DNA of 64,000 nucleotides from Chloranthus sessilifolius (lineage: Eukaryota > Streptophyta > Magnoliopsida > Chloranthales > Chloranthaceae): positions 141,233,725 to 141,297,724 of the forward strand of contig CM037588.1 in NCBI GenBank assembly GCA_021018995.1, given 5' to 3'. Under the pieces are notes generated by a model, which was not told the origin of the DNA, did not search any database, and saw only the letters and a program-made list of their open reading frames with translations. Shown here in pieces: positions 8,500 through 54,805 of the stretch. A program made the translations under genes and the position numbers. Numbering within the stretch: the first letter of the stretch is position 1; the number at the start of each line of letters is the position of its first letter.

Positions 8500-9165
8500 T
8501 GAAATTTGGGAATTATTAACAATACAAATAACAAACAAATTAACACTAATTACACACAATCAGCACACAACCATAAATTAAACACAAATCATTTTTAACG
8601 TGGAAAACCTATCACAGGTAAAAAACCACGAGATCTATCTTAGATCCAAAAGAATAATCCACTATGAATAAATAACCTTACAGTGCTTTAGAATGATATG
8701 CCCTATCACTCTTCTCACCTACAATGACAGCCTCTCAACATCATCCGATCCATAGTGAAGAATTCCAACAACCGTCGCATCCAACGAAAGTCCACTCGTC
8801 TCACACGAGCCACATACTCTCAAACACAAATTCAAGAATTAGACAACATCTTTGAGACTAGGATTTAAAGATCAAAATCAAAGTAATCTCAAGGACAAAA
8901 TTTTGGACTAGAGGAAAATAATTTTGGATCTTAGAGAAAATTTTTGCTCAAAAAGATAACCACCCGAACCAACTTTGTGTTTAAATACTATCAGTTCACA
9001 GACGTCCGTGATTCACTCACGGTCGTCCGTGACCACGGATGTCCGTGAGGTCCATCACAGACGTCCGTAAATCTGATAGTGTAAAATGCAAATTCATCAT
9101 CTTTTACTTGGCAATTAGGGAGTAATTTTTTAAATTAAGTCATGATTATGATAAAAAAACTTACA
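8500..9165 (-). repeat. 3' LTR of copia D
   Basis: It runs TGAAATTT...AACTTACA on the plus strand, 666 bp, closely matching 32959-33624. Four ACGGACGTCCGT-type dyads lie at 8996-9071, just upstream (element orientation) of a TATA-like TATTTAAAC near 8985. Confidence 0.95.
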
Positions 9166-9824
9166 ATCTCCCCCTTTGTCACAATCATGGCAAAATCTAA
9201 TTTACAAGGACTCATTAAAAAAAATTACATCAAATATTCTCTCATCTAAGTCCTATACATCAATCTATCATGCAATGTAAAAAAAAATTACAACACGATT
9301 TGCTCCCCCTAAAACTATTTGCCAAGTAAAATAAAATAACCTAAATACTATCTTTTCAGATAACTAAATCTTTGATATGATGTTACCTGAAACAATACAA
9401 TAGAAAAAGATCAAGTGTAATAGGTTATATATATAAATTTCTCTCCCATTTGGTCATAATGTGACAAGGGAAAAGGATAAAACAAAATTTGAACGACTTT
9501 ATATGAATCATTTGATACAAATTAGAGATCAAATCATGAAGCAATATATAAACATTCAGAAATAAACATTTATCATAAAAAATAAAAAAAACATCTACAG
9601 TAAACAGTTAAATAGCTTGAAATAGATCGTTCTTTAAGTACAAAACATTCTAGCTATCACAAAAAGTCATTCAAAAAGCAAGAACAATTACATAAACATT
9701 TACATCAGTTAACATGTCTAGAAAAATAATAATCGTCAGCTGGCGGAAATTGAGATCCAGGAGGAGGAAAGACATTGTCAAAATGGTGCAGCAACGTACT
9801 AAATCCTCCAACCAAATAATTTAA
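9166..9824 (-). other. 3' untranslated region and polypurine tract of copia D
   Basis: The minus strand has a purine tract AAAGGGGGAGAT at 9166-9177, directly before the LTR, as expected for plus-strand priming. The remaining 650 bp to the accessory ORF stop are A/T-rich and I see no gene in them. Confidence 0.75.
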
Positions 9825-10926
9825 CTACTCCCCATATAGGTTGAAACCAGTTTCAACCCGATTAGCCAAATTTTGAACCTCAGAGTCAAGCTGATCAAAG
9901 CGTTGATCATAGTAATGCTGATCATGACCTTGAAATGGGGGAATTGGAATATCACCAACTTGGCCTTGAAAAGGAGGAGGATTTGGAATAGCACCACCAC
10001 CAACTTCTCCTTCATCATATCTTTCAACATTCATTGCTCCTTTATCTTCTTCAGAGCTATTGCTAATCCATTCAACATCATCTACATCAATTCTAACTAT
10101 TTTTCCAATTTTCTTCAATTTTCTAAGAGGGGCCATCAATCTAGATGTCGCTAAATTTGGTGGAAGCGACATTTGAGATGCAACCACTCGTCTTATGATG
10201 ATTGGAAAGGGAAGAGACATTTTGGTTGTCTCATCACGCATACGATGAGCAATCATTAGAAATAAGATAGTAGAGATGCAAAGTGGACGACCTGTTTCTA
10301 GAAGAAACATCAGATATATCAAATCCCACCTAACTTGATCTTTATTACCTGCTCTAGGAGTTAGAGTGGCAAAAAGAACATGACAAAACCACTGAAAGCG
10401 ACTCTTAAGGGCAGAGTAATGTACAACGGTGTTAGTAGGATGATTAGGTCGTTCACAAACAAAGTCATAAACAACAGAGGATTGATGTAGAGAATACATC
10501 TCATTCTATTCAACAGGGTATCTATATCCTTCAAAATTCAAAGGAATGCCAATGACTTCGGAAATAATAGGAGAGAGTCTAATTTTTTTTACCATAAACA
10601 TAGAAAATGAGAAAACTCTCTGACCGATCCTCGACAATATTACTTTTGATCAAATTGGAGTAGAAACACCGGACGACATCCGTATACACTGGACCCGAAA
10701 TAGATAGAAAAGAAACCCATCCGCATTCTTGAAACAGAGCAAAAAGATTATGATCGTGAAGAAATTGCTCGAGAACTACCCGTTCGACAATTAAGGATCT
10801 TGTTGCAAAAAGATGATTAAACCGTTCTTCAATTGTCGGTGTAGGAAATCGTTGAACAATTTGAAATTGAGGCGGCGTAGAAGAGGAATGGACATTTTTT
10901 CTTGAATTTTTCCTATTTAACGGCAT
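9825..10926 (-). pseudogene. Accessory ORF of copia D ('putative plant transposon protein' family)
   Basis: The frame begins at ATG 10924-10926 with a basic, Ser-rich start (MPLNRKNSRKN) and contains ISGPVYTDVVRCFYSNL. One frameshift near 10580 and a stop near 10502 separate it from the longer 3' part (9825-10499). The shifted link holds GKKIRLSPIISEVIGIP, which matches the pattern GK-x-I...ELLGIP of the domain I know as 'putative plant transposon protein'. The C-terminus has a Pro/Gly-rich linker and a short predicted coiled coil (FDQLDSEVQNLANRVE). It lies after pol in the sense direction, where Sire elements carry an env-like ORF. Counterparts occur in gypsy C (23335) and B (50417). Function unknown. 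Confidence 0.7.
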
Positions 10927-11040
10927 TTTGATATGAATTTTTCAAAAAAAAAATAATTTGGAGGATGAAGTGAAAAGTTAAAAAAAAATTCGGTAAAAGT
11001 GAGTAGAAACAAAAAAATGACCGTATTTGAGTTAAAATTT

Positions 11041-11418
11041 TGACAGACGTCTGTGAGGTTGTTCACGGACGTTCGTGAGGAAGTAATCCGCGTGATCAGT
11101 TAAAAGCAACCATTGAAAAGAAACACAATAAAATCATAACCGTTTAATTTAAATTACGGACGTCCGTTCTGCATTTACGGATGTTTGTGAAAAGTGGTTG
11201 ATATATTTAAATGCAGTTGGAAAAACTGTACGGCAGTTGAAACAATAGGCATACGGACGTCCATAGTGCTACACGGACATCCGTAATTTTGAAGACAGTT
11301 AACGTATTTAAACACGGACATCCGTAATGCCACATGGACGTCCGTTAAAATCTGTGCACAAAAGAACAGAGAAGGATTGTCTTGACGGACGTCCGTGAAT
11401 TTTTACGGACGTTCGTGA
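11041..11418. repeat. ACGGACGTCCGT dyad array upstream of the D accessory ORF
   Basis: Ten dyads of the form TCACGGACGTCCGTGA, some with one or two changes, occur as five pairs with about 8-15 bp between partners: near 11043/11064, 11155/11178, 11251/11274, 11315/11336 and 11383/11404. The array ends about 115 bp before the accessory ORF start. The same word occurs four times in each D LTR. Confidence 0.9.
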
Positions 11419-12430: not shown

Positions 12431-13149
12431 TCAAAGAAATTCAAATCGAACAAAATCCAACGATTTTATAAAAATATCAGCCAATTGTAATTGAGTGTCT
12501 ATGTGCTCAAGGAGAATAATGTTATCTTCTATCAAATCATATATAAAATGGTGTCGGATATCAATGTGTTTAGTCCTAGAGTGTTGTAAAGGAGTTTCAG
12601 AAATACAAATTACACTGGTGTATCACAAAATAAGGTCATAACACCTTGAGTAATCCAATAATCAGACAATATTTGTTTCATCCATAAAAGTTGAGTACAA
12701 CCATTTCCAGTAAAAATATATTCTGCTTTAGCAGTGGATAAGAAAATAGATGCTTGTTTCTTACTGAGCCAAGATACAAGATAATTACCGATATAAAAGT
12801 AACCACCACTGGTAGTTTTACGATCATCAGAATTACTAGCCCAATCAGAATCAGAGAATCCTATGATATGAGAAGTAGTATCAAAAGGATACCAGAGACC
12901 TAACTCTAATATTCTGTTAGCATAACGGAGGACACATTTAAGTACAGTTATATGAGATTCTTTAAGGGCTACCTGGAACCTAGCACACATACCTACACTA
13001 TAGGCTATATCCGGTCTACTAGCAGTTAGGTAGAGAAGGCTACCTATCATGCTTTTATATAAAGTCTCTCCAACAGATCTACTTGATACATCTTTTGACA
13101 ACTTCACATATGTACTCATTAGAGTGCGAGCAGGCTTACTGGATTTCAA
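12431..13149 (-). pseudogene. RNase H region of copia D
   Basis: The main frame (12610-13149) shows the copia hallmarks SLLYLTASRPDIAYSVG, FSDSDWASN and STAKAEYI. These give the RT connection, the first catalytic Asp and the Glu of the RNase H fold. After a frameshift near 12610 the C-terminus continues (HSRTKHIDIRHHF, QLADIFIKSL) to TGA at 12431-12433. The H-x-R-T-K-H-I-D-I motif is typical for copia elements. Confidence 0.9.
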
Positions 13150-13862
13150 ACCAAATTTTTTAACAAGTTCTTTGGCATATTAGATTGAGTAATGAAAATG
13201 CCAGAGGAACACTACTTAATCTGAAGACCTAAGAAACAGTTTAACTCACAAAATAGACTCATTTCAAATTTAGTGCTCATTAGATTTTGAAATTGATGAG
13301 CATTTAAATCAAATGTGGAACCAAAAATAATATCATCAATGTAGATTTGAGCAACAGTCAAAAGGGACGATTCTTGTTTTACAAATAAGGTTTTATCCAC
13401 ACTGCTACGTTTGAATCCGTTATTGATTAAAATTTTTGTTAGTCCATCATACCAAGCACGAGATGTTTGCTTCAAACCAAGTAATACTTTTTTAAGTCGA
13501 AAAATATCAAGAGGATGATGTGGATCTTCAAACCCTTTAGGTTGTTCCACATACACTTCCTCAGAAAGAAAACCATTAAAAAAATACTTTTTACATCCAT
13601 TTGATATCATTTAAATTTTAAATGGCATGCCATGGTCAAAATGATACGAATGGACTCAAGTCTAGCCACAGGTGCAAATGTTTCATGAAAATCAATGCCT
13701 TCAACCTGTGTGTAGCCTTGAGCCACCAATCTTTCTTTGTTTCTAATGATTTTACCTTTTTTATTTGTTTTATTTTTAAAAATCTATTTTGTACCAATTA
13801 TTCTAATATTTGAAGGTCTAGAAACAAGTTCTCACACAATATTTTTTTTTTAAATTGAGTGA
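13150..13862 (-). pseudogene. Reverse transcriptase of copia D
   Basis: The catalytic box is YIDDIIFG within the frame 13212-13610, which also holds EEVYVEQPKGFEDP and LLGLKQTSRAWY. The N-terminal part ([20 protein letters not shown]) is visible in another frame over 13622-13760. Several frameshifts and stops separate the blocks. Order and motifs are standard for Pseudoviridae RT. Confidence 0.92.
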
Positions 13863-14598
13863 GCTCTTCTTGCATGGCCATAACCCAATGCTCATCAAGA
13901 AGAGCCTCTTTAACATTTTTAGGTTCAATAGAGGATGTGTAACACACATGATATAGAAGATTTGAAAGATTTTTAAATTTTCTCCTAGTCATCAATTTGG
14001 TGGAGGCATCACCAATGATTGCACTAGGAGGATGGCTTCTCATATCATGAGCATAGGTAGGTCTATTTTGAGATTTATTTTCAGAGATATTGTTAGTTGT
14101 ATCTTCTACACTTAAGTCTTCTGTGATATCAGGAGTAGTGTACGGAGAATTGACATTGTCAGATGAAGAATTAATGTTATCAAGTCTATATTTTTCATGA
14201 ATAACAAGAACAACAAAAGTTTCATCATCAATATCTCTATTTACAACATTAGAAGAATCAGATTTTTGATCTTCTACAACACCATTTATTGATTCAATCA
14301 CAGTAAGAGTCCTTAGATTAAAGACCCTATAAGCCCAACTATTTAAAGAGTAACCAAGAAAGATTCCTATGTTAGTTTTAGCATCAAATTTACCAAGAGA
14401 TTCTCAATCCCGTAGTATATGACAAGCACTTCTAAAGACACGAAAGTAACTAACTTGAGGCTTTTTACCATTCCATATTTCCTATAGAGTTTTAGTAGTG
14501 TTGGGTCTAAGGTACACACGATTTGATATATAACATGCAGTACTAATGACCTTAGCCCACAGAACTTTAGCCACATTATTAGCATTTATCATAACTCT
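13863..14598 (-). pseudogene. Integrase C-terminal part and INT-RT linker of copia D
   Basis: The frame 13798-14301 gives a Ser/Asp-rich linker followed by VKEALLDEHWVMAMQEEL, the usual entry to copia RT. The stretch 14302-14598 holds the integrase C-terminal GKFDAKTNIGIFLGYS block in one frame. Gypsy C entered at 14603/14604; removing C and one TSD copy rejoins this frame with the integrase core at 27625, confirming a simple insertion. Confidence 0.88.
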
Positions 14599-15195
14599 AG
14601 TTATGTAATATCCCAAAAAATCACGTTAAACAGTGACCTTAGGATCCGTGCCCGACTGGTCATAGGTTTGACCAAATAGGAGTTCAATAGTTGGCATAGA
14701 GTGCGATGAACGGATGAGATGCGAAAATTCGAGTGAATATGTAGAGTGTGATGTAAATCTGAAGTCACATACACTTATTACGGTGCATGTGCTCAACACA
14801 CAAACTAGAGGAGAGATAAAAGGGTTTAAGAACCCTAAAATAGAGGTTTTGGTTGTTGAGAGAGAAGTAAAGAAGAGAGAGAGAGGAGTAAAGAAGGTGG
14901 TTAAGCAAGGAGTTATTGTGAGTGTTTGGAAGGGGGATTCAAGCATTTAAAAGGCTGATTCGACACAAGGGATCTGCTAGAAGCAAAGCTGGAAACCCTA
15001 GCCTTTCCAACCACTTGACCTAATCAATTGGAGATTGATTGAAGGTAAAATTCTTGTAAATTAAATACATAGATTGAAGGGTTTAATTGTAGTTAGAAAT
15101 AGCTAAAATCATAGGATAATGGCTTAGAAAAGAAAGAAAAAATCATTTGAAAAAAGATTGGGAAGAACAGCCAAAAGGGAGCTGAATTTGACCAT

Positions 15196-15672
15196 TTCGA
15201 TTAATTGAAAGTGAGATTCGATTAATCGATTTTAGCCAAGAAGTTGAAAAGTCAAAAGACACGATTTCGATTAATCGAACTGAGTTTCAATTAATTGATT
15301 TTGATTTTCGATTAATCGATTTTGGTATCGATTAATTGACTGGGAACCTCCAGTGAACTCCAGTGGAGGGAAGAAAAAGGACTTGGAAAAATCGACTAAT
15401 CAAAATAGGATTTCGATTAATCGATTTAGAATTTCGATTAATCGATTTGGGATCGATTAATCAATTTGGGAATTCGATTACTCGAATTGAGAATCGAATG
15501 GATAGAGTGGAGAATTTTGATTAATCGAATTGGGATTCGATTAATCGAATGGGAATCTCGATTAATCGATTTGAGAATCGATTAATCGATTTTGAATTTC
15601 GATTAATCGATTTTGGAAATTGATTAATCGAATCAGATTCGATTAATCGATTTTGGAGTTCGATTAATCGAC
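15196..15672. repeat. TTCGATTAATCGAA array of the 5' LTR of C (about 19 units)
   Basis: Counted by eye: 19 units, many perfect palindromes and others with one or two changes, separated by 8-25 bp. The 3' LTR (25768-26145) has about 14 units. Confidence 0.9.
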
Positions 15673-16680
15673 TGTGCCAGGTTTTGTTGACTTTTGAGTT
15701 TGACTTTAAGATTCTTGGACCTTCTTGGTTACATCTTTAATGATGTATTTCATATGTTATGTGGTACCATAGGTGGTACGTGTGAACTTGGGCACAAGGA
15801 GCCACGTGGGACCTTGATGCATGATCAAATAGAGACTTGAGGTAGGGAACACCTTGAACATGTACTTTATTTTGCAAGCATGTATGTAGTGATATAGAAT
15901 TCAATTCAAACTGTTTTTGTTTCTTAAGAGTTTGTGAAAAGTGTGCGTGTGTGACATCTAAAAGAGTAATCATAATGAGCCATCCCCAGGGGATGAGGAA
16001 GTAAAGAAATAAGAGCATCAGGTGTTATGCAAGTGAATGGATGCATCCCAGGGATGTATCCAAGATTGAATTATGTCTGATAAGGCCTAACGGATATAAG
16101 ATAGCACACTTACACGGTGAATAACTATATGTAAAGCACCTGATATTTTTGTTATTTGAGGTTTGATAGGGAACCCCACCGGGATACCCACGACCGACGC
16201 GGCAGGATATCCATGACCGATATGGCGGCGAAACCGTAGGCCAGTGCGGAGTCTTATCCGTACATAGTAAGAATACCCCAGGGGTGTTGAGTTGAGATAA
16301 GTGAAACCCCGCCACCGATCCCCAGGGGAAAGGGGCTTGGGTACTAATTGTATTCCCAGGGAATACGTTTAAAACTGTCTATATAGATGACGATGATGGG
16401 TATCTCATCGAGGCTCGATGCTATATTGCTCGAGGATTACTTAAGTTGAAAGGTTAAGTTTTGCTTTAGGCCTATTCAGCATCATTCATGAATAATCAAA
16501 AGACATGAGTAAACTACTAGTAAAATATGATTCTTTTCAACTATTTTTCATCAGTAATTGCATAGACACATCATGCATGACATATCATGGAATATATGTG
16601 AGTTGTAATTTATATGTTCAATTGTGTTCTGTTCCCTATTGAGCTAGGATGTAGCTCACCCTTTAGACTATACATCGCAG

Positions 16681-16883
16681 GTCCACTATTAGCAGCTGTC
16701 GAGGCTTCAGGGGACGTTGATCCTGGTGAGTCAGACCCGGCACCTGGAGACGAGTTGGAGCCACCTCCTGAGGACTTCTTCTTGAGGACTCCGTTGTGCA
16801 GCTTTGAGAGTTTTTGTGAGCGTGTTTTATGCGGCTTGGTATGTCAAGCCTTATTTTCATTAAACAATGTAATTAAGTCATGA
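16681..16883 (+). other. Acidic reading frame of the 5' LTR of C
   Basis: Following GACTATACATCGCAG|GT the frame reads through an Asp/Glu/Pro-rich peptide (ESDPAPGDELEPPPEDFF) and on to a stop at 16883. Solo LTR F has the same peptide with changes. The EDFF box corresponds to EEFF in E and G. The 3' LTR of C has lost the frame by deletion near 27220. Confidence 0.5.
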
Positions 16884-17146
16884 GATTATTCTTTTGGGGC
16901 GAACCATCATTTATGATCAGCGATCATCGATGGTTCGGATCGGTTCTCCATTCATGCAGAGGCATGAAGGTAGAACTGTCTTTGGAGAAATATTTAAATG
17001 ATAATTTAATTCCGCAGCTTTATTCATTATTTCAGTGCAGTTCATTGTTTGATATACCAATGTTCCGTGGATAGCTAAGGGGCACGGTCAAGATGATCGT
17101 GCTGATGGCACGGGCTTCGGGGTGCCGAAATTTGGGCTGTCACAGT

Positions 17147-17159
17147 TGATATCAAAGCC
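17147..17159 (+). other. Primer binding site of gypsy C, degraded
   Basis: TGATATCAAAGCC follows the LTR after two bases. It differs from the initiator-Met type site TGGTATCAGAGCC by two G-to-A changes. Confidence 0.85.
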
Positions 17160-17236: not shown

Positions 17237-18676
17237 ATGCAGCCGTCAATGTCGTTTAGAGGAAGAGGTCGACCCAGGGGAGGCCAATAGAGAAGGTTGC
17301 GTAGTGGAGATGAATACATCTCTCCTACCAATCGCTGCACTTTAGGAGGCGTGAGGCCCTGTGGGGCAACAAAGAGTGACAAAGAAGATGATGAGGATCG
17401 AGATCGTCAGGATCGAGATCAACGGGGACAGGAGAGAGTTAGAGAAAGACAAGAGGATAGAGAGGAGTGACAAAGGATGATGCATACCATGGAGACCATG
17501 GCAGCTGCCATGGCACAACAAGCCGCATCCCTTGCAGCTCATGTAGCTAGAGAGCAGCAGCCACCTACACCACCTATAGGACCCGCACTGCCTGTGCCTT
17601 CATCCTTCACGGAGTTTAGGAGGATGAGACCTCCCTCATTTTCTGGGCAGGCAGACACGATGGCAGTAGAAAATTGGTTGATGGAAATGGAGAAGATTTT
17701 TAGCGTGCTGACATGCACAGAGGATGAGAGTGTTAGATGGGCAGCCTACATGCTAGATGGGGAGGTTGGGCCTTAGTGGAAGTCCGTGATACAGACTAGG
17801 GCTCAGGAGACCCTGGAGTTGCCCTGGACTTAGGAGGAGTTTGTTGAGGAGTTCAACAAACAATATTTTCCAGAAGTGATAAGGAATCAGCTTGAAATCC
17901 AATTTCTACAATTGGCGCAAGGGTGGATGACCATGAGGGAATATGGAGTGGAGTTTCTACGACTTGCCCATTTTGCTCTGGATTACGTCGCTACCGACGT
18001 GATGAAGTCCAAGAGGTTTCAGCAAGGTTTGAAGCCTGAGGTTAGGGGAGGAGTAGCTCCATTTCAGCTAAGGACCTATGAGGAGGTCATGAGCAAGGCA
18101 CTAGTTGTGGAAGAAGAGAACAATAATAGATACAAACAGAGAGAGCAACAAAGAGGAAATAATGATCAAGGAAGATCAGGGAACTACGAACCGGTGAATA
18201 AAAAGCCAAGGTCCGTGGCCCAAAATCAGAGACCACAGTTCCAAGGGAGTTTCGGAAGGCCGGCGCAACAGCAAAACCAACAGAGATTTCCACTACTTGC
18301 GTCGGGGAGACCGTTACGCTATGAGAGCCCTGCCATGTCTACTGGCGCTACTGTCACCCAAGGTTCTCGTACAGTTTCTTCCGCACCTCGAGAGACTTGT
18401 GCCAAGTGTGACAAGCCTCATAGGACAATGGATTGCAGAGCAGGGACTAGGGGTTGTTTCCGATGTGGCAAGGTAGGCCACTTGATCAAAGATTACCCCG
18501 TGGTTGATAAAGGAAAGACGGCTTCAGTTGCAGCGCCACGACCCATTCAAGCACGAAAGCCGGTCGTTCATGGGAGAGCCTATGCAGTCACTGCTCAGGA
18601 AGCAGGAAATGTGCATGACATCATTCAAGGTGAGATTCTTTTAAATAAAGAAATTCCAATTTCATTAAAATTTTAG
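17237..18676 (+). pseudogene. gag: gag of gypsy C
   Basis: One reading frame from ATG 17237 to 18676 (about 480 codons), with four in-frame stops at 17288, about 17468, 17774 and about 17831. The first 80 codons are Arg/Asp/Gln-rich. The retrotransposon gag core follows (PPSFSGQADTMAVENWL, TMREYGVEFLRLA). Near the end is a zinc knuckle CFRCGKVGHLIKDY whose last Cys is Tyr, preceded by a partial CAKCDKPHRTMDC finger. Stops such as TGG-to-TAG suggest deamination decay. Confidence 0.92.
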
Positions 18677-21934: not shown

Positions 21935-21937
21935 TAT

Positions 21938-22165
21938 GTGAACGATCCATCTCATGTGTTAGAAAGTCAACCTTTGGAGATGTGTGAAAACATGAGCATG
22001 ATAGAAGAACCGGTGGAGATCTTGGATCGAAAGGAACAAGTACTGCGCACTAAAGTGATTCCCTTAGTGCTTGTTCGATGGAAAAATCATCCGAATGAAG
22101 AAGCTACATGGGAACGAGAGGCCGATGTGAGAGAACAATATCCATCCTTGTTTCCGACCACTTGA
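21938..22165 (+). pseudogene. Chromodomain-like C-terminus of gypsy C integrase
   Basis: After a stop at 21929-21931 the frame continues with PVEILDRKEQVLRTK, LVLVRWKNHPNEEATWE and a short acidic end. Spacing and the W-x(n)-EATWE pattern match the chromodomain of chromovirus integrases, which is thought to direct insertion into heterochromatin by binding histone H3 marks. Confidence 0.88.
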
Positions 22166-23074: not shown

Positions 23075-23086
23075 TCGAAGCCAGTC

Positions 23087-40069: not shown

Positions 40070-40073
<4 letters not shown>

Positions 40074-43135: not shown

Positions 43136-43545
43136 GTGACGGACGTTCGTGAACTCAGGATGAACGTCTGTGAAATCATGTGCTCACTATTTTTTGAGCA
43201 CGGACATCTGTGATGGTCACAGACGTACGTGGCTCAGAGAGTCCGTAGGCGACGGACGTCCGTGACCCCAGTACGGTCTTCTGTGGAGACGTTCTGCCTC
43301 GCGACGGAAACTACTATTTTTATAAAAACTTACCTTTTTTCAGTATTTTATTATTTTAAGACTCTTTAATTCAAATTATTTTTGGTTGCTTATATAAAGA
43401 AGCTTGTAAACAAACTTTAATCAATTTTTGAATATTATTGAATGAGCTTTTGCTTAGTGGAGAGAGATTCTTCTTTTTCGTGATGGGTTTAGTGTGAGGC
43501 CAATGGAGTGATTCCCATATATCTTTTCGTTTATATCATGTTTTA
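43136..43545 (+). mobile_element. Copia-like LTR remnant J, left part
   Basis: Six to eight ACGGACGTCCGT-type dyads at 43136-43287, the word of copia D, are followed at about +100 bp by GCTTATATAAAGAAGC, a good TATA box (43390-43405). The outer boundary to the left is unresolved. Gypsy B is inserted at 43546, and J continues at 54811 with no coding sequence recognised. Outside the dyads it is not a close match to LTR D. Confidence 0.5.
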
Positions 43546-44298
43546 TGTAATATCCCAGATATTTTGGACCAGATTTTATTTACCTCGGTAAGCGTGTCCG
43601 AAAATTATTACGGAAATTTTCTGGATTTTTGTTTAGTTTTGGATATGATAAGAATAATGGCCAAAGGATTTTGTTTCGTGACGTGTGGAAGTCATGTAAA
43701 CGATGACTTACACAATAAGTTGAATGTTTGTGTTTCACGTCGGATTTAATTTCAAGTTAAGTAGATAGGATTGCAAATAGAAAAATCTAGATATTTTAGC
43801 TTTGTTTTTATGTTATAAGAGAGAGTTTGAAAGAGAAGTGTAACTTCTCTCTCTCTCTCGTTGGATTTAAGAACTTGCAAGCTCTGCCTCACCTTTGATT
43901 TTAGATCTAGTGAGTTTGTAAACCCCTCTCCCCATCTCAATCGTTGAAAAGACTTGTCATGTGGTGATGATCGGTTAGATGCATTGAAAAGGAAGACTAG
44001 GGGAGAGTGGACGGTTTGGTGAAGGATCTGGGCTAACCTTTGCCCTGGTAGCAACGTGAAGATGTACTGATTTTGGGGTCCAAATTGGAACTTGCGGCTT
44101 AATTCGGTGCTTAAGAATAGATCCACGGAAGCTAGGTGCAGACCTTGAAAGGTAGGCTCTTTAAACACCTTTGATTAAAATTATTTATGCTTAGAATAGT
44201 TTAGATAAAGGGTACGTCTGAAAAAGATAGATGGATTGGTGTTTTGGAATGAAAAATCAAGTCGGAAGAATAAATCTGGAACACACAGATCTGGAGAA

Positions 44299-44439
44299 AT
44301 TCGAGGGTCGAATTTCAATTCGATGGTCGAATTTGAAATTCGACCATCGAAAATAAATTCGATGGTCGAATTTGGGTTTTTAAGCCTGATGCATTTTTGG
44401 AAAATTCGATGGTCGAATTTCAATTCGATGGTCGAATTT
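44299..44439. repeat. Dyad array of the 5' LTR of B (TTCGA-TGG-TCGAA, 6 units)
   Basis: Six units of ATTCGATGGTCGAATTT or its complement; the first has core GGG. Copied at 53114-53255 in the 3' LTR. Confidence 0.92.
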
Positions 44440-45560
44440 GGTCCGATACTGCTTTGGTATTTCAGTCATAACTTTTTATCCCGAACTCGGATTAATGCGA
44501 TTTTTGAGGCGTTGGAAACAAGACAACGAGCCCTATAACTTTCATGAATTGACCAATTTGTGAATCGAATGTTATAAAGGTCAAAAATTAGGGTGAAGTA
44601 GAGACAAGTTTTTACATGAGTCAATGTTACTTTAAACTTGCCTGTTTTGCCTAACTGTGAGAAAATTTTAGAAACTTTGGCTTATATGATAATTAGTCGG
44701 TAATATGTGTATACATGAATGTTTGTAATGTAGATTAAAGATTGGAGATCGTCGAGTGAGCTTTTACTTTGCCTCTGACATGCTCGACTCTAAACTAAGG
44801 TAGGGAAAACTTGATATCATGTGCATTATTTCATAAACATGTGTGTTATGTTATGATACGTTCTTCGATTCTATTTTGTGATTTCCGTTTATGATTTTGA
44901 AGAAATGAGGCATGTGTTTATGTATGACTTAAAAACATGTGAGACTTATGGAATCTTCGAGATTCATTTGATATGGGTATAAGAGACTTTCACACTTTGT
45001 TCCGACTTCTGATATAAATTATAATTATTACTTCACACGGCGATAAGCTATATGTATGCACTTTTGGATTTAAGGTTATGTGAATACCCGACCGACGCGG
45101 CGGTATAACCGCGATTGACGCGGCAGGATATCCGTGACCGGTACGGCGGCCAATCCGTACACCCTTTGTGATATGTACTTTGTGATTCCTACCGTATAAC
45201 GGTAATTATGTTCGGCCAAGTGTCCAACTCTACGGGACCTTGGATTTATGTGCAAATGACTCATGTGAGTGACGATGGTGGGTATTCCATCGGGGGCTTG
45301 AGGCTATAGTTCCTCATTCTAGTACTTTAAGTAAACACTTTTAAGATTTTCTTTCTTATGTCGGAATAGAAATGTGAGCATGTTCATGATTCCATTAGCA
45401 TTGCATATGTATGTTAAGGTTATGAAATCACCTCTCTGCATGTGTTCAAAACAACTTTGTGTACGTTATGCCATAAGATATGTGTTTGATGTTATGATAA
45501 GCATGTTATTAGTTTTTTTTTTCTACTGAGCTTGGATGAAGCTCATACTATCGTCCACAG

Positions 45561-45662
45561 TCTTGACATTGCCTTAGGATCGACGATGATCGTGATTTGG
45601 AGAACTCGACTACATTCTTTGAGGAGGAGTTGGAGACCCCAGCAGAGGAGTTCCTTCCTTGA
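45561..45662 (+). other. Acidic reading frame of the 5' LTR of B
   Basis: The frame following the acceptor-like site is open to TGA 45660-45662 and ends FEEELETPAEEFLP. The 3' LTR copy (54370-54468) ends DYIAEEELETPAEEFLP in the same frame, although small indels separate the two LTRs here. Confidence 0.5.
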
Positions 45663-46001
45663 TCGAGATAGGTCATTTTGGTACTTTTGGATTAGAATTT
45701 TTTTGAATATTGGGCCCTAGGCCATTGTTTTGTCTTTTGGATATCACTTGAGGAACCATCAATAGGAACCATTGTTTAGGTGTTTGGATTGGCCAACACT
45801 GGTGGTTCTTTCTGGTTCCTCTTGGTGATATTTTTTGTTAAAGCTTTTAAGCTTTTGTTCTTGTTTTATTAGCTTTACTTCTATTTAGATCTATGCTTAT
45901 GCTGCCGACTTTGTTTGAAATACGGCTTATTGAGAAATCAATAAGATGATGAACCGGCCTTTCCTATACCTTAAGGATTGGAAAAGTCGGGTCGTCACAG
46001 T

Positions 46002-46013
46002 TGGTATCAGAGC
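46002..46013 (+). other. Primer binding site of gypsy B
   Basis: TGGTATCAGAGC starts two bases after the 5' LTR and is complementary to the 3' end of initiator tRNA-Met. Confidence 0.95.
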
Positions 46014-46167
46014 CTAGGCTTTAAGTCTTATGGGAGACTGTGAGCCATAGCTCTAAGTAGGAAATGACATTAGGTCTGTCTAAACATAGGCTATGAGTGT
46101 TAGAGTTCTGTCAAGACATCGAGACCATCTGTTAATTGAAACCTTTGTTTCATTTTGACAGATCGAT

Positions 46168-46737
46168 ATGGCGCCTCGCAAAAGAGCCAAAACTGTACGC
46201 ACTGACAATAATGATCGCGAGCAAACTAAGCAGCTGCTGGAGACAATGGTGAAAATGATGGCCCAACAAACTGCTCTACTCACGACGTTATTGCGAGACA
46301 CTGCGCACACCTCTCCATCCACACAGGTTGAGTTATGCTCGTGGTGTGGTAAGCAGCACAAGACAGAGATGTGTAGAAGGATCACAGGTGCGTGTTTTAG
46401 GTGTGGACGCATTGGACATCTGATAAGAGACTGTCTTGAATTGGAGAGAGAGACGACAACATCGGCAACAACTAGAGCATCCGTAGTACGACAAGCCTTA
46501 CGTATCTCTTCATTTGTACCGATTGATATGTGCGCAAGATGCGGAAAGAAGCATAGGATGGAGAAATGCAGGCTCGCCTTGGGGGCATGCTTTAGATGTG
46601 GTCAGAAGGGACATCTGGTGAAGGATTGCCCAGAGCCGGATCAAAGGAATATGGCTTCAACATCTATTCCGGGACCATCAACATCACACGATGCTCAACC
46701 AATGAATGAAGTCATCCAAGGTATAATCCATTATTGA
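46168..46737 (+). CDS. gag: Truncated gag of gypsy B with duplicated zinc knuckles
   Basis: An open frame of 189 codons starts MAPRKRAKTV. After about 50 residues with a short helical, Met/Gln-rich stretch it has two tandem knuckle modules, each a CxxC-x-H-type finger followed by a full CCHC (CFRCGRIGHLIRDC and CFRCGQKGHLVKDC). The gag capsid core seen in gypsy C is absent. The frame has no stop, unlike the rest of pol. It may bind RNA but cannot form a normal capsid alone. Confidence 0.88.
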   Translation: MAPRKRAKTVRTDNNDREQTKQLLETMVKMMAQQTALLTTLLRDTAHTSPSTQVELCSWCGKQHKTEMCRRITGACFRCGRIGHLIRDCLELERETTTSATTRASVVRQALRISSFVPIDMCARCGKKHRMEKCRLALGACFRCGQKGHLVKDCPEPDQRNMASTSIPGPSTSHDAQPMNEVIQGIIHY

Positions 46738-46921
46738 TTGTCGAGAGTTTACCTTATTCTCATGTGATGAATGTTCTTAGAAGTTATATGCTATTGTGAC
46801 ATTTTGGGTAATATCATAATCCTATCTTATATACACTTAAATGAAAATATAGGCATAAAACCTTAATACTTTACACTTGTATTAGAGTGTTGGCATATGT
46901 GAAACTGAGGCATGAGTCTTA

Positions 46922-47300
46922 AACGACCCTGGGTCTACTCACTCCTTTTTTATCCCGATGTTCTCAACACGTTTGGGCATTACGCCTGAGACGTTAGACT
47001 TTATATTAGTGGTGACAATTCCTACGGGTAGTTTAGTGAAGACCGACACCGTGAACAAATCAGTCATCATTCACGTGGAGGATCTTGAGACTAGGGCAGA
47101 TGTGATATTATTGAATACGGTGGGTTTTGACGTGACGTGATACTGGGAATGGATTGGCTATCCGCTTACCATGCAAGCGTTGATTGCCTGAGGAAAGTGG
47201 TAACTTTTCGTCCTCCTATGGGAAAGTCATTTCAATTTTACAAAGTGAAGACTAGGGTAGCACCTTTTATATCAGCTATTAGAGTTGAATCTCTGATAAA
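46922..47300 (+). pseudogene. Aspartic protease of gypsy B
   Basis: The active-site region reads NDPGSTHSF (usual LDSGATHSF), followed by VTIPTGSLV, VGFDV and ILGMDWLSAYHASVDC. A frameshift at about 47138 splits it. The catalytic Asp is kept. Confidence 0.9.
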
Positions 47301-47699
47301 GATTTTGGGCTTGCAATATATAATTCTAGTTCATATACAAATTTTGGAAAATTGTACCTACATGTTTGTGTTTACTTTAGCTAAATGACATGAGATCAAT
47401 CGGGCCATGTCTAGCTTGGTTGATGACTTATAATAGCAGATTATAGGTGTTACCCCTACGGCTGAGCCTGGGATTAGCATTAAATATGTTCGGGCTTTGA
47501 AAAGGTCGATATGGAATAAAGACCAACTTTAAAAAAAAAAAAAATTAATTTTGGAAAAATTTTGAAGTACGATTCTTTGCAAAATTTGAACCTCAATTAA
47601 CATTCAAGGTCAAATTTTGTATGGTCACCGATAGGGTTTTAAGGTTTCTTTGGATTTTCTTCCTTCTTGGCAAAATCAAGGGATTAGGTGTGCTTAATC
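47301..47699 (+). other. Deletion scar where reverse transcriptase should be
   Basis: Between protease and RNase H there are only about 400 bp. A short remnant (VTPTAEPGISIK) resembles the RT entry; the rest is A/T-rich and has no RT motif. In gypsy C the same interval is about 1 kb. Confidence 0.7.
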
Positions 47700-47999
47700 A
47701 AAATGAGTGAGTCATTGCTTATGGTTCTAGGCAATTGAAAGACCATGAGAGAAATTATCTGACACATGATCTCGAGTTAGCAGCAGTTATATTCGCCTTG
47801 AAGATCTGGAGACATTACCTCTACGGTGAGATATTTGATATATTCACCAATCACAAAAGTCTCAAGTACCTATTCACTTAGAAGGACTTGAATATGAGGC
47901 AGCGACGATGGATGGAATTCTTGAAGGACTACGATTGATTCAAGACCATCCGGAAAGGCAAACGAAGCGTTTCTTGATGCTCTTAGTAAGAAGTCTTCA
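47700..47999 (+). pseudogene. RNase H remnant of gypsy B
   Basis: [29 protein letters not shown] and [12 protein letters not shown] (usual FTDHKSL, so a catalytic Asp is Asn), then a TAG and [14 protein letters not shown]. Stops and frameshifts lead into the integrase. Confidence 0.88.
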
Positions 48000-49136
48000 G
48001 TGCAGTTATCACATCTTGTCAGCCGAATACAGAGATGGAAGCTTTTGGAAGATACGGCTTTGGGCAGCTCATGGTTTGATGTGAAAGGCTCAGGAGCATT
48101 GATGGCTACACTTGTACTACGTCCTACGCTCTTCGAGAATATAAGGAAGCTTCAGATGACCGATAATGAGCTGATGGCAATCAGACAAGATATCGAGAAT
48201 GGCAGCAAGAAGGATTTCTCCATCCGAGCAGATGGGACCTTGTTGTTTCACGACCGTGTATGTGTACCGTCGAGTATAGAGCTTCGGGACACCATTCTGG
48301 AAGAGGCTCACAAATCCATGTATGCCATACATCCTGGTAGTACCAAGATGTATCAGGACTTGATGAAGAGTGTTTGGTGGCTAGGTTTGAAATGCGATGT
48401 TGCTGAGCACGTATCGCGGTGCTTGGTTTGTCAACAGGTTAAGGTTGATCATCAGAATCCTGCAAGCCTATTGCAGCCTTTACCTGTGCCTGAGTGGAAA
48501 TGGGAAGCCATTTCGATGGATTTCATACTCGGATTGCCAAAAACACTGAGGAAGAACAATGCCATATGGGTCATTGTCGATCGGCTAACCAAGTCTGCTC
48601 ATTTCTTGCCATACAATACCACGTATACAACCAATAGACTTGCAGAGTTATACCTGAAGGAAATTGTTAGACTGCATGGGATACCGGCTAGTATTGTGTC
48701 GGATCGAGACCCATTGTTTACTTCACATTTTTGGCAGAGATTTCAGGAGGGCATGGGTTCTCGTCTTAACTTTAGTTCGGCGTTTCACCCACAGACGGAT
48801 GGCCAGACTGAGCGCGTGAACCAGATCATTGAGGACATGTTGAGAGCATGTATGTTAGATTTTTACGGGTCATGGGACCAACACTTGCCTTTGATCGAGT
48901 TCGCCTACAACAATAGCTTTCAGGTTAGCATTGGTATGGCTCCGTTCAAGGCTTTATATGGACGGCGGTGTCGATCACCGTTGAACTGGGAAGAAGTGGG
49001 TGAGGAGCTCATTATTGGACCTGAGATAGTTGAGCGCACTACCAAGACGGTTCGGTTGATACGTGAGCGACTACAAGTAGCTCAGAGTCATCAGAAGAGC
49101 TACGCCGATCTCAAACGGAGACACGTGGATTTTCAG
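48000..49136 (+). CDS. Integrase of gypsy B, exon 1
   Basis: The frame is uninterrupted for 379 codons. It has the HHCC finger ([16 protein letters not shown]) and the full DDE set: SMDFILGLP, SDRDPLF and TDGQTERVNQ. It then reads ALYGRRCRSPLNWEEVGEE and ends RRHVDFQ. The reading frame continues after an 82-bp intron. This is the best preserved pol domain in the window. Confidence 0.9.
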
Positions 49137-49218
49137 GTAGCTTTTGATATGTCAATGTGTATTTCTTCACTTGGTATAAATTCCATGTGAAATCGGGCAC
49201 TAATAATTGATTTTTCAG
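49137..49218 (+). other. Short intron in the integrase of gypsy B
   Basis: GTAGCTTTTG...TTGATTTTTCAG, 82 bp, splits HVDFQ and VGENVFV. Removing it restores the standard integrase C-terminal reading frame. The intron contains an in-frame stop, so unspliced RNA would give a protein lacking the chromodomain. Confidence 0.75.
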
Positions 49219-49638
49219 GTTGGCGAGAATGTCTTTGTTCGGATTTCGCCTACGAAGGGCGTTATGCGGTTCAGAAAATGAGGGAAACTGAGTCCTCGGT
49301 ACGTTGGGCCTTTTGAGATATTAGGCCGAGTCGGAGAGGTTGCATACAGAGTGGCGCTACCACCGCAATTGTCGAGCATGCACAACGTCTTCCATGTGTC
49401 CATGCTGCACAGATACATACGCGACCCGACTCACGTGCTTGATTACCAACCCATCGAGCTTCGGGATGGTTTGACGGTGATTGAGGACCCGGTTTAGATC
49501 TTGGATCGCAAGGAACAGATCCTACGCACTAAGAGGATTCCTTTGGTTCTCGTCAGATTGAGGAATCATACACTAGAGGAAGCCACCTGGGAGCACGAAG
49601 CTGAGCTCCGAGAACAATTTCCGCACCTTTTTGATTGA
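49219..49638 (+). pseudogene. Integrase C-terminus and chromodomain of gypsy B
   Basis: [76 protein letters not shown]. Two in-frame stops (TGA near 49278, TAG near 49495) break it. It ends at TGA 49636-49638. Confidence 0.88.
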
Positions 49639-50416
49639 TTTTATTTAAACAATGCATAAGGGAAGTCTTGTATTTAGACTTTTGTAATGTACTTACTTGC
49701 TTTATATATATATAAAATTTTGGCGAGTAATTTTGGCGGTCCAATGCATATTAAATTTGTGCCTGTTTAAACATACCTACTTTATGGAAAATCGAAAAAA
49801 TTTTGGGCCTTTGACCAAAACCAGGGATGTTACTCCCTAAATTGCTGGTGGAATTAATAGGGCCTTTTATAGTTAATTCATTTAATTGTTTTTCTAAGTT
49901 AAAATTGGCTCTATTTGATGCCAGAGATGTCGCATTCCATAATTGCACTAAACTGGGCTCTAAGGAGGTCGATTTGGACCCAAAGAATGGACCCTCATTT
50001 TAAAATTTTTGAATTTTGGAGGAAAATAGAACTTGAGAAAATCGAGGGTCGAAAATGCAATTCGAGGGTCGATTTTACATGAACAGTGCACACTCTGTTT
50101 AAGGCCAAAATATAGCCTGAGAAATTTTTTAGGAAATTAAGGGTCGAATTTTTTTTTCGACTTAAGTGGGGTCTGTTTTGGGGTTTGGCATTTCGGGTGT
50201 TTGCAAACAGAGTAAAGGCTCGGGGTTTTCGAGTTTTGGGCCTTTTCTTGATGTTCTTGGCTAGATTCAAGGGGATTTCACTCTGATTGCACAAGGGGCT
50301 TGGATTTCTTGCATTTGAGACCACATTGGAGGCATTTCAAGAGGTAAAACCCTCATTATTTTGTGTTTTGGTGCCTCATTTTCTTGCATAGTTTCGGTTT
50401 TTGTCTTCTTTGATTT
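49639..50416 (+). repeat. Spacer with dyads between pol and accessory ORF of B
   Basis: It contains TATATATATATAAAA at 49705-49719. Two units with core GGG (TCGAGGGTCGA and TTCGAGGGTCGA) lie at 50040-50077, and a weaker pair (GGGTCGAATTTTTTTTTCGAC) at 50140-50163. The TTCGA/TCGAA arms match the LTRs of B, whose first unit also has core GGG. No gene is visible. Confidence 0.65.
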
Positions 50417-51639
50417 GTGGGACCTAAGAAACAAACGACCACACGGGTTCCTACATCCAAAAGACCGGCTTCTAGAGATGGCTCTTCACGCCAACCTTCA
50501 TAGTCACCAACCACTCCAACCCCTCGCTCACCGCTGCACAACCTATACCCCCTCAAATTCGGGAGCAACCGAATGAGTTTTGGAGTATTAAAGGCTTTGC
50601 TACTGAGTGGGTTTTTCACCCTGAACTGTTTGATCAACAGCCGACCACTCAGTCGGCATCGAAGTATTCAAAGAAAGCCCAATTAACCTCGTTATGTACC
50701 GCCTTTAGTGACCACTTCTACCCCCATCTTGTGCATTTGTTTTATCAGCGCATGTGTAAGGACGATGAAAAAAAAAAAAAAAGAAGTTATACCTCAATTG
50801 ATGGGCGTGACTACGCCTTCGACCTAGAGGACATTGCCTTCGCAATGCGTTGCCCACTTACACATTCACCGAATATGGGTTTGGGTCCTCCTTTCCCTAA
50901 ATCTGTTCCTGTTAAAGAGGTTATCAAGCAAATGACCCAAGGTCGTCATGGGTCTGGTCATTCTATCACCCTTTCACACATGCCCAACTCCATGTGGATC
51001 TTCGACATGATTTTCAAAGCAACCCTTTACCCATTCGGACACCGATCTGAGCGTCGGGGTCCCATCCAACAACTTTTATTCACTGCTTTTAAGGAGCGTT
51101 GGTTCAGTGCCCCCACAATCATATTTAAGGGGATTATTAAAGCTCGTGAAAAGATGGGCAAGCAAGTGAAGAAACTGAAAAAGGGCATTCCATATGCTCG
51201 TTTGATTTCAGTTATGATCGAAAATTATTGTGCGGGCCCAGCTTATGAGATTCCCCCTACTGAGCTGAAGTCCATGGATGGTCTAAAATTGTATAAACTC
51301 GTTAATTGGGATCCAACGCACGTTGCCCGAACCGATGTTCTGCACCGATCACCGTGAGAGCGTACTCACGCCGAGTTTACTCAAGATGACTTCTATGAGC
51401 CACCGATTCAAGAGCTCACACATCATACCAGCTCCATGCGCGCCGGGAGTTGGAGGTTCATGGCGGGCTCCGGCGTATCTCATGCGGCATGTATTCCCTA
51501 CGATTATACCACGACATGGCCGACATTGACGTCCGTGCTCACCACCGTCGACATCAGCGCAGTCCCAGATGCCCTCGATGAGGGTGTTGTTGGGTTGGAT
51601 GATGCCGACGCTGATGATGGGGACGATGACCAGGAATAG
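50417..51639 (+). pseudogene. Accessory ORF of gypsy B ('putative plant transposon protein' family)
   Basis: The start is GTG at 50417, where ATG is expected (GPKKQTTTRVPTSKRP, basic like C). A TAG near 50495 and a frameshift follow. The main frame has QPNEFWSIKGFATEWV, HFYPHLVHLFYQRM, IDGRDYAF, MWIFDMIFKATLYP, ERWFSAPTIIFKGI and ARLISVMIENY, then TGA at 51355-51357. It continues in the same frame to an Asp-rich tail (DDADADDGDDDQE) and TAG at 51637-51639. All core boxes align with gypsy C; the C-terminal coiled coil of C is not obvious. Function unknown. Confidence 0.8.
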
Positions 51640-52359
51640 GCTGATCAGACTGCTGCGGGGGAGGACTAGACCAGCCTATGTGTTGTTATGTTGTTTTTAT
51701 TGTCTTGTTCATAGATTGCATTTATTTTTATGGATGCTCTAGAACCTTATGGTTCTATCTTTTGCTATTTCTTATACACTTTTGTTTTGTGGTATGGAGC
51801 GCTAAGCTCCATTTTGTTTCGTTGTGTACTCTTCGATCTATGGATGCTCATGTAGTTTATAGCCATCTTTGTTTGGTTGTGAACTTATGGACTTTGATAT
51901 CTGAGCATGTGCTTTCATCCATGGTTGTTCTTTTTCTTCACTTATGGTTGTGCCTTTGGTTCTTTTGCATTCTGTTTTGGTATTTATCTGGTTTTGTGAT
52001 TCGATTTACCGATTCTATCACTTAAATCAATTTTGTGTCCTTTCTGTTTTGATTTGTACACCATGAGTCACGGTGAGGTTATTTTCCGGCACGTGACACT
52101 CGGGGTGTAGGCATCCATGTACGGATGCAATCCACTATGGCACTTTGGGTGCCACATGAAGTACATCCAGGTTACTACGGATCCCACCCCTTGACTTGCG
52201 TGCCCTGTGAGGCTATCGCACTGTGGCCCATGTATTTTTTTGTTTTAAATTTGTATTTTCGGTTCCGTTTCGCCTGACAGGTTTGGATGGGTTTCTTTCG
52301 CGCTTTGTTTCGTTTGTCTTCTCCATTTTCGATGACGAAAATTTCTAAGGAGGGGAGAA
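51640..52359 (+). other. 3' untranslated region and PPT of gypsy B
   Basis: T-rich non-coding DNA ending GACGAAAATTTCTAAGG and the purine tract AGGAGGGGAGAA at 52348-52359, immediately before the 3' LTR. Confidence 0.8.
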
Positions 52360-54805
52360 TGTAATATCCCAGATATTTTGGACCAGATTTTATTTACCTC
52401 GGTAAGCGTGTCCAAAAATTATTACGGAAATTTTCTGGATTTTTGTTTAGTTTTGGATATGATAAGAATAATGGCCAAAGGATTTTGTTTCGTGACGTGT
52501 GGAAGTCATGTAAACGATGACTTACACAATAAGTTGAATGTTTGTGTTTCACGTCGGATTTAATTTCAAGTTAAGTAGATAGGATTGCAAATAGAAAAAT
52601 CTAGATATTTTAGCTTTGTTTTTATGTTATAAGAGAGAGTTTGAAAGAGAAGTGTAACTTCTCTCTCTCTCTCTCGTTGGATTTAAGAACTTGCAAGCTC
52701 TGCCTCACCTTTGATTTTAGATCTAGTGAGTTTGTAAACCCCTCTCCCCATCTCAATCGTTGAAAAGACTTGTCATGTGGTGATGATCGGTTAGATGCAT
52801 TGAAAAGGAAGACTAGGGGAGAGTGGACGGTTTGGTGAAGGATCTGGGCTAACCTTTGCCCTGGTAGCAAGGTGAAGATGTACTGATTTTGGGGTCCAAA
52901 TTGGAACTTGCGGCTTAATTCGGTGCTTAAGAATAGATCCACGGAAGCTAGGTGTAGACCTTGAAAGGTAGGCTCTTTAAACACCTTTGATTAAAATTAT
53001 TTATGCTTAGAATAGTTTAGATAAAGGGTACGTCTGAAAAAGATAGATGGATTGGTGTTTTGGAATGAAAAATCAAGTCGGAAGAATAAATCTGGAACAC
53101 ACAGATCTGGAGAAATTCGAGGGTCGAATTTCAATTCGATGGTCGAATTTGAAATTCGACCATCGAAAATAAATTCGATGGTCGAATTTGGGTTTTTAAG
53201 CCTGATGCATTTTTGGAAAATTCGATGGTCGAATTTCAATTCGATGGTCGAATTTGGTCCAATACTGCTTTGGTATTTCAGTCATAACTTTTATTCCGAA
53301 CTCGGATTAATGCGATTTTTGAGGCGTTGGAAAGAAGACAACGAGCCCTATAACTTTCATGAATTGACCAATTTGTGAATCGAATGTTATAAAGGTTAAA
53401 AAGTAGGGTGAAGTAGGGACAAGTTTTTACATGAGTCAATGTTACCTTAAACTTGCCTGTTTCGCCTAACTGTGAGAAAATTTTAGAAACTTTGGCTTAT
53501 ATGATAATTAGTCGGTAACATGTGTATACATGAATGTTTGTAATGTAGATTAAAGATTGGAGATCGTCGAGTGAGCTTTTACTTTGCCTCTGATATGCTC
53601 GACTCTAAACTAAGGTAGGGAAAACTTGATATCATGTGCATTATTTCATAAACATGTGTGTTATGTTATGATACGTTCTTCGATTCTATTTTGTGATTTC
53701 CGTTTATGATTTTGAAGAAATGAGGCATGTGTTTATGTATGACTTAAAAACATGTGAGACTTATGGAATCTTCGAGATTCATTTGATATGGGTATAAGAG
53801 ACTTTCACACTTTGTTCCGACTTCTGATATAAATTATAATTATCACTTCACACGGCGATAAGCTATATGTATGCACTTTTGGATTTAAGGTTATGTGAAT
53901 ACCCGACCGACGCGGCGGTATAACCGTGACTGACGCGGCAGGATATCCGTGACCGGTACGGCGGCCAATCCGTACACCCTTTGTGATTCCTACCGTATAA
54001 CGGTAATTATGTTCGGCCAAGTGTCCAACTCTACGGGACCTTGGATTTATGTGCAAATGACTCATGTGAGTGACGATGGTGGGTATTCCATCGGGGGCTT
54101 GAGGCTATAGTTCCTCATTCTAGTACTTTAAGTAAACACTTTTAAGTTTTTCTTCTTTCTTATGTCGGAATAGAAATGTGAGCATGTTCATGATTCCATT
54201 AGCATTGCATATGTATGTTAAGGTTATGAAATCACCTCTCTGCATGTGTTCAAAACAACTTTGTGTACGTTATGCCATAAGATATGTGTTTGATGTTATG
54301 ATAAGCATGTTATTAGTTTTTTTTTCCTACTGAGCTTGGATGAAGCTCATACCCTAAATATAATACCAGTCCGACATTGCCTTAGGATCTGACGATCGTG
54401 ATTTGGAGAACTCTGACTACATTGCTGAGGAGGAGTTGGAGACCCCAGCAGAGGAGTTCCTTCCTTGATCGAGATAGGTCATTTTGGTACTTTTGGATTA
54501 GAATTTTTTTGAATATTGGGCCCTAGGCCATTGTTTTGTCTTTTGGATATCACTTGAGGAACCATCAATAGGAACCATTGTTTAGGTGTTTGGATTGGCC
54601 AACACTGGTGGTTCTTTCTGGTTCCTCTTGGTGATATTTTTTGTTAAAGCTTTTAAGCTTTTGTTCTTGTTTTATTAGCTTTACTTCTATTTAGATCTAT
54701 GCTTATGCTGCCGACTTTGTTTGAAATACGGCTTATTGAGAAATCAATAAGATGATGAACCGGCCTTTCCTATACCTTAAGGATTGGAAAAGTCGGGTCG
54801 TCACA
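52360..54805 (+). repeat. 3' LTR of gypsy B
   Basis: 2446 bp, almost identical to 43546-45999. Differences include a 14-bp deletion near 53983 and a rearranged 20-30 bp stretch before the acidic frame (54350-54370). Dyads are at 53114-53255, the possible intron at 53615-54369. Confidence 0.96.

Follow-up and report, generated by a model that had tools for sequence, protein, structure and literature searches.

In a stretch of 64,000 nucleotides of the Chloranthus sessilifolius genome (contig CM037588.1 of assembly GCA_021018995.1, positions 141,233,725 to 141,297,724, hereafter the window), three long terminal repeat (LTR) retrotransposons, namely a Ty1/copia element (D), a Ty3/gypsy element with a chromodomain (C) and a gypsy element related to C (B), each carry an array of a short palindromic word (dyad) in the LTR and the same word again in the spacer between pol and an accessory open reading frame (ORF). 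The best-supported part of our reading is that these are DNA-level regulatory arrays common to the LTR and the accessory gene. As for their binding partner, each family would possess an operator-like array of its own word, most likely bound by the accessory protein, a reading to which we give slightly less than an even chance.

The array coordinates of C, D and B in a preliminary description of the window held on re-reading, and the presence of same-word dyads in the LTR and spacer of all three elements, which it had reported, was confirmed by counts, shuffles and genome-wide controls. With at most two mismatches, word C was found 15 and 12 times in the two C LTRs, 18 times in a solo LTR and 21 times in the spacer of C. 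For word D the counts were 4 and 2 in the two D LTRs and 9 in the spacer, and for word B 6 in each of the two B LTRs and 2 in the spacer. The gag-pol, accessory and flank regions scored 0, save one D match in the B accessory region. Matches outside a word's own element fell in other LTR-like stretches of the window (three of C in array E, one or two of B in arrays F and G, four of D left of B), and the similar words E and F cross-match C and B. For each of the three spacers, the observed count was reached in none of 200 dinucleotide shuffles. At the level of the whole genome (2.17 Gb), with the word reversed but not complemented as control, the C word occurred 60,765 times vs. 5 for the control, the D word 9,483 vs. 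14 and the B word with a GGG core (TTCGAGGGTCGAA) 3,780 vs. 38 (1,965 + 1,815 vs. 26 + 12 on the two strands). With more than 60,000 copies of its word, a factor reading word C would thus have many thousands of potential sites.

Relatives were fetched from the genome as best-scoring matches, not as a random sample, and typed by their accessory protein rather than by pol. Loci L005-L034, of copia D type, are the best 30 of 150 scored places matching the Pfam family PF20167 (13,856 candidates); L035-L064, of B type, are the best 30 of 134 scored (47,441 candidates), among them, as L035, the B copy of the window itself; and L065-L076 are 12 loci chosen from the 150 for their differing match ranges. 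For the C family, the material consists of the window copies and four fetched C-word loci, all of which match the C LTR sequence and one of which (L003) also matches the accessory sequence. In a de novo dyad search of the copia loci, CGGAC-GTCCG was the top word upstream of the ORF in 29 of 30, with L031 in the register ACGGA-N2-TCCGT, and the D word was found at least twice upstream in 29 and at least twice downstream in 26 of the 30. The copia pattern returned upstream in four of the 12 further loci (L065, L066, L067, L069), while L070, which has a copia-type accessory protein, showed two D dyads downstream and a different word far upstream. Concerning B, the description of its spacer copies as weaker applies to the window copy, with 2-3 dyads; among its relatives (L036-L064), 26 of 29 hold at least two B dyads upstream of the ORF, and a single one or more is present in 28. 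The polypurine tract and LTR start (at most two substitutions) were found 1.0-1.2 kb downstream in 27 of the 30 B loci, window copy included, and the exact B word lay 1.83-2.05 kb downstream, about the position of the LTR array in the window's B, in all three scored B accessory matches within the listed range on contig C1.

Some exact B words on contig C1 are grouped in threes, with intervals of about 3.1 and 6.8 kb (e.g. 52263371 / 52266430-52266574 / 52273324), the geometry expected for LTR, spacer and LTR. Two more words were seen, TTGATCGATCAA in 13-14 copies (L070, 139-486) and CGCTCGAGCG in 12 copies (upstream part of L055); these arrays probably belong to neighbouring elements.

Two more groups, H and N, occur among the 12 further loci, and their words were picked after the data were seen. 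In group H (L073, L075), the same mixture of TCGATTAATCGA and TCGATGCATCGA stands before and after the ORF in both loci. Upstream of its accessory ORF lies a gypsy integrase (rve domain, E = 2.4e-13 in L073; L075 reads alike), the only integrase seen in the typed loci, which we tentatively take to be of Athila type; the label Athila-like is used below in this sense. In group N (L068, L071, L072, L074, L076), the word GCCTCGCGAGGC was counted upstream of the ORF 7, 5, 5, 8 and 2 times with at most three mismatches, vs. shuffle maxima of 3, 3, 4, 3 and 3, and so exceeds each of 50 shuffles in four of the five loci, against a reading of the group as free of arrays. For the D and H loci, the LTR side is the region downstream of the ORF, taken without set LTR borders. 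The preliminary description had proposed covariation of LTR and spacer words by family as a check, and the spacer word was indeed the LTR-side word in all four readable families (D, B, C and H, the downstream array of H being presumed LTR). In the Athila-like spacer of L073 (about 1540-1640), TATTTAAA lies about 40 bp past the last dyad, with an ATG about 90 bp further.

D has a Ty1/copia reverse transcriptase (RVT_2, E = 1.2e-24) and shows two Sirevirus features as defined in Bousios 2010: palindromes with a CGG-CCG core that stand both in the LTR and ahead of the accessory ORF (the ACGGACGTCCGT arrays, the ORF being a candidate counterpart of the published ENV gene), and the polypurine tract AGGGGGAG 10 bp upstream of the 3' LTR, read on the minus strand at 9168-9175, with the start of the octamer at that distance from the LTR edge (9165). 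The pol of C ends in a chromodomain (30.1 bits, cut-off 25.1), and the pol of B, related to that of C, gives a match of 18.6 bits, below the same curated cut-off. The preliminary description had treated the three as unrelated elements, of which a copia and two gypsies should not share the layout by descent. This did not stand: the pol regions of C and B are about 67% identical in DNA, their accessory proteins are 38% identical, and all three accessory ORFs match PF20167 (Transposase_32, 'putative plant transposon protein'). Convergence of three unrelated elements is thus ruled out by the kinship of C and B and the single accessory family, and the argument from descent proves too strong for the same reasons.

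The decayed main accessory pieces of the window score 23.8-32 bits, below the PF20167 cut-off of 45, which was passed by all 150 scored genome places; all 30 aligned accessory proteins match the family at E ≤ 1. Between groups, comparisons gave E-values of about 1e-41 for B-C, 2e-13 for H-C, 9e-05 for D-B and 4e-05 for D-N, and the direct D-C comparison was not significant (E = 0.46). The copia accessory ORF is under purifying selection, with a ratio of non-synonymous to synonymous substitution rates of 0.18 over 105 pairs (two pairs at 1 or above) of the 15 intact 394-aa ORFs among L005-L034. Among the 11 accessory proteins checked, the seven copia and B proteins that reach the start codon all have a basic start and a C-terminal third with more acidic than basic residues. 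A 19-residue hydropathy peak above 1.8 was seen in only two of the 11 (L066, L073), which makes a membrane segment the exception. No match was returned by a search of a large protein collection at E ≤ 0.001, nor by scans of viral contigs.

Dyad centres are mostly 19-22 bp apart in most families. Spacings of 18-22 bp, a class also picked after the data were seen, account for 73-83% in four C arrays (20-25% under random placement), 80% of 5 in the B LTR (23%) and 71% of 104 in the B spacers (15%), for D, 48% of 208 in the spacers of the fetched loci (12%), 50% of 8 in that of the window (11%) and 69% of 65 on the LTR side (29%), for the two H arrays 38% of 26 (11%) and 58% of 12 (19%), and further 67% of 15 in E (23%), 54% of 13 in L070 (20%) and 33% of 3 left of B (12%). 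These figures do not include arrays F and G, whose half sites overlap, L068 (0 of 3) or the L055 array, in which 22 bp accounts for 6 of 11 spacings; L005, which has no array, is likewise outside the copia spacing, conservation and CpG sets. Extra peaks at 39-42 and 61 bp in the D spacers are as expected for multiples of one period or lost dyads. A period of about two helical turns, kept across words of 12, 13 and 14 bp, would place bound proteins on one face of the DNA. Related gypsies keep the arms TTCGA...TCGAA and vary in the core or gap, which is TTAA in C, TCGA in E, GGG or TGG in B and ACT in F and G. Column conservation was 0.866 in dyads vs. 0.649 in linkers for the copia spacers, and 0.804 vs. 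0.728 for the B spacers (L035 and L055 excluded). CpG is lost quickly in methylated elements; in the arrays, its observed/expected ratio is 1.7-3.0 vs. 0.64-0.89 in the compared LTR or ORF sequence.

Taken as double-stranded DNA binding sites, the arrays would most likely be occupied by the accessory PF20167 protein, which would act in oligomeric form on sites spaced by about two turns of the helix; co-location, the symmetry of the palindromes, the period and the make-up of the protein point to it as the candidate binder. Once bound, it would activate the LTR promoter and its own gene at the same time, by raising their activity or lifting their silencing, and this joint activation would form a self-reinforcing loop. 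The preliminary description had likewise proposed an element-encoded factor acting on its own cognate repeats and countering silencing in the manner of VANC; that proposal finds partial support, in the matching words of the four families, the selection on the copia accessory ORF and the dyads that look better conserved than their linkers, with the binding and the effect on silencing as its putative parts. By way of analogy only, the foamy virus transactivator is a single protein that acts both at the LTR promoter and at another one ahead of the accessory genes. In its widest form, the proposal is that PF20167 proteins may be sequence-specific self-recognition factors of plant LTR retrotransposons (copia, chromovirus-type and Athila-like), binding family-specific dyad arrays that stand in front of their own gene and in the LTR, mostly with a 20 bp helical phase, with protein and word diversifying together as in the VANC proteins; judged from sequence, this generalisation is possible, though we lean against it.

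Several observations weigh against binding by the accessory protein. H and C have the word core TCGATTAATCGA in common with accessory proteins about 30% identical, and a D-type array at 43139-43284 lies in sequence without a match of at least 70 bp to D; both speak against a strict rule of one protein for one word. The accessory tree, with modest support and long branches, puts H with N, while H shares its core with C. In group N, the GCCTCGCGAGGC count of L076 does not exceed the shuffle maximum, spacings of 18-22 bp make up only 3 of 22, and no GCCTCGCGAGGC was found downstream of the ORF in the fetched stretches, the LTR of N lying outside what was read. H and N proteins as cut (L073, L075, L072) show neither a basic start nor an acidic end. 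AlphaFold models reached a mean predicted local distance difference test score of 34 and 45, too poor to judge a DNA-binding fold, Foldseek gave no fold match (best E 0.21), and structure searches gave no solved relative, with one chance-level match (E 0.97). The dyad conservation may be inflated, since the aligner may anchor on repeated words, and within a family shared ancestry by itself can produce the link between word and protein. Lastly, a TATA-like box precedes the accessory start in only 6 of 29 D loci (4.6 expected) and in 0 of 30 B loci. A TATA box right after every spacer array is thereby ruled out as a general rule; with such a box in the one C case and in both H loci, an internal promoter before the accessory gene is plausible for some families.

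Binding by host transcription factors, the elements having captured a host site and multiplied it in the LTR and in a second, internal promoter while the accessory protein acts otherwise, is in our view unlikely. The D word contains GACGTC, which we take to be a bZIP-type core and count in favour of a host factor, and words are partly common across lineages, as in the H/C core and the D-type array left of B. In the available text of Bousios 2010 (PMC2829016), Sirevirus motifs compared with a plant regulatory-site database gave mainly stress-related sites. The related gypsies, which keep their TTCGA...TCGAA arms and change the core or gap, fit a diversifying element-encoded factor better than one host factor.

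An action of the arrays through RNA or silencing, as hairpins, small-RNA hot spots or CpG methylation targets with the second copy as a by-product, is improbable. Palindromes in maize Sirevirus LTRs are indeed small-RNA mapping hot spots according to the accessible part of a 2017 paper, and the arrays are CpG-rich, but a 19-22 bp period over words of 12, 13 and 14 bp would be expected for DNA sites and not for RNA hairpins (group N being without the period), and a silencing target kept in a second place would bring the element no gain. We hold it equally doubtful that the arrays are neutral tandem repeats, born of slippage in non-coding parts, with the spacer array a roleless chance copy of that in the LTR. 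The LTR and spacer arrays of C do align at about 71%, recurrence within a family (29 of 30 copia loci, 26 of 29 B relatives) may be simply inherited, and one survey, as far as its available text goes (PMC11963269), found tandem repeats between pol and the 3' LTR in roughly half of its Retand elements. Against neutral repeats speak the use of the same two places in copia, chromovirus-type and Athila-like elements and the dyads that look more conserved than linkers despite their CpG content.

The copia part of the layout is already in print: in the text available to us, Bousios 2010 (PMC2829016) describes CGG-CCG-core palindromic motifs in Sirevirus LTRs near the TATA box and, where an element has an envelope-like gene, again ahead of that gene (77 of 79 linker copies), calls them Sirevirus-specific, takes them as support for an internal promoter and reports no common site for one binding factor. 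D is an instance of that layout. The published motifs come from a Ty1/copia set; the gypsy layout, the shared PF20167 family and the 19-22 bp period do not appear in that text. A literature search of titles and abstract starts, with subscription papers mostly outside its reach, returned no gypsy version, and the layout in chromovirus-type and Athila-like gypsies, their common accessory family and the 19-22 bp period in most families are apparently new. With the VANDAL elements and their VANC anti-silencing proteins, as presented in the accessible text of Hosaka 2017 (PMC5735166), the present elements have in common a dense element-specific short motif in non-coding parts, targets differing between related elements and an element-encoded extra protein. 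VANDALs are Mu-like DNA transposons, whereas the hosts here are LTR retrotransposons; VANC21 binding was demonstrated by chromatin immunoprecipitation sequencing and electrophoretic mobility shift assays and its motifs stand in one orientation, whereas the words here are palindromic and putative binding sites.

As for gypsies with an accessory ORF between pol and the 3' LTR, the available texts describe Grande gene23, with a nuclear product and its own promoter (PMC7264820), and Retand TRP28, with predicted DNA binding and family-specific tandem repeats (PMC11963269). Unlike those considered here, their ORFs are antisense, the Retand ones carry TRP28, and palindromes matching the LTR are not described in these texts. 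In sunflower, Athila elements have a sense ORF with partial PF20167 similarity and a predicted nuclear signal, whereas the ORF of Tekay lies on the 5' side and has no known domain, and the accessible part of that paper does not mention palindrome arrays (2024, PMC11728184). The role of envelope-like accessory genes in plant retrotransposons is unsettled, and the available part of a 2026 paper states that whether such ORFs help to shape the epigenetic landscape is still to be investigated. If accessory factors do read their own operator arrays, Sirevirus palindromes, gypsy accessory genes and anti-silencing would be linked in one scheme.

The features of the window, called from self-comparison and profile searches, are given in Table 1. 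D lies on the minus strand and is interrupted by C, which is flanked by AGTTA on either side; B is likewise flanked by TTTTA.

Table 1. Retrotransposon features and palindrome arrays in the window (position 1 is its first nucleotide).
Feature	Position	Strand	Remarks
D 3' LTR, aligned part	8500-9165	-	92% identity to 32959-33624
D 5' LTR	32959-33624	-	array 33456-33532
D word array ACGGACGTCCGT in 3' LTR, 4 dyads	8996-9071		TATTTAAA next at 8987, minus strand
D accessory ORF, later piece, broken frame	9828-10505	-	PF20167 E = 3.5e-06
D accessory ORF, first piece, basic N terminus	10582-10941	-	PF20167 E = 0.056 and translation
D word array, spacer upstream of accessory ORF, 10 dyads	11041-11418		
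D pol pieces	12613-14403	-	RVT_2 13215-13610; SH3_retrovirus 13801-14403
C (chromovirus-type gypsy) 5' LTR	14603-17144	+	91% to 25178-27619
C word array TTCGATTAATCGAA in 5' LTR	15196-15672		
C gag piece	17834-18673	+	Retrotrans_gag
C pol pieces: RNase H, integrase zinc-binding domain, chromodomain (21932-22162)	20197-22162	+	
C word array in spacer, 24 dyads	22377-23079		TATATAT at 23087
C accessory ORF, in-frame stops	23335-24903	+	PF20167 match within 23566-24159
C 3' LTR	25178-27619	+	array 25771-26146
C-family solo LTR, absent from the preliminary description	28531-31070	-	array 30012-30489; 85% to C 5' LTR
B 5' LTR	43545-46002	+	array 44299-44439 (TTCGA-N3-TCGAA); 97.6% to 52359-54808
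B gag and pol pieces: zinc knuckle, integrase, weak chromodomain (49498-49635)	46159-49635	+	
B word dyads in spacer, 3, decayed	50040-50148		
B accessory ORF	50476-51354	+	PF20167 match; basic N terminus visible in another frame
B 3' LTR	52359-54808	+	array 53115-53255
Array of word TTCGATCGATCGAA (E), adjoining B-related LTR sequence 5157-5997	4524-4976		13 matches
Array of word TTCGAACTTCGAA (F), in B-related minus-strand stretch 6698-8499	8241-8486		
Dyads TTYGAACTTCGAA / TTCGAACATCGAA (G), in B-related LTR 55709-57954	56491-56631		
D-type word array, directly left of B insertion	43139-43284		surrounding sequence without match of at least 70 bp to D

Further B-related LTR sequence is present within 5157-8499 and at 55709-57954. 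TATA-like boxes lie at 43321 and 43391, after the D-type array left of B. The C spacer also holds two copies of another palindrome, ACTGGC-N4-GCCAGT (22440-22475 and 22905-22930), and a looser ACTGG...CCAGT block is found in the C LTR near 15341.

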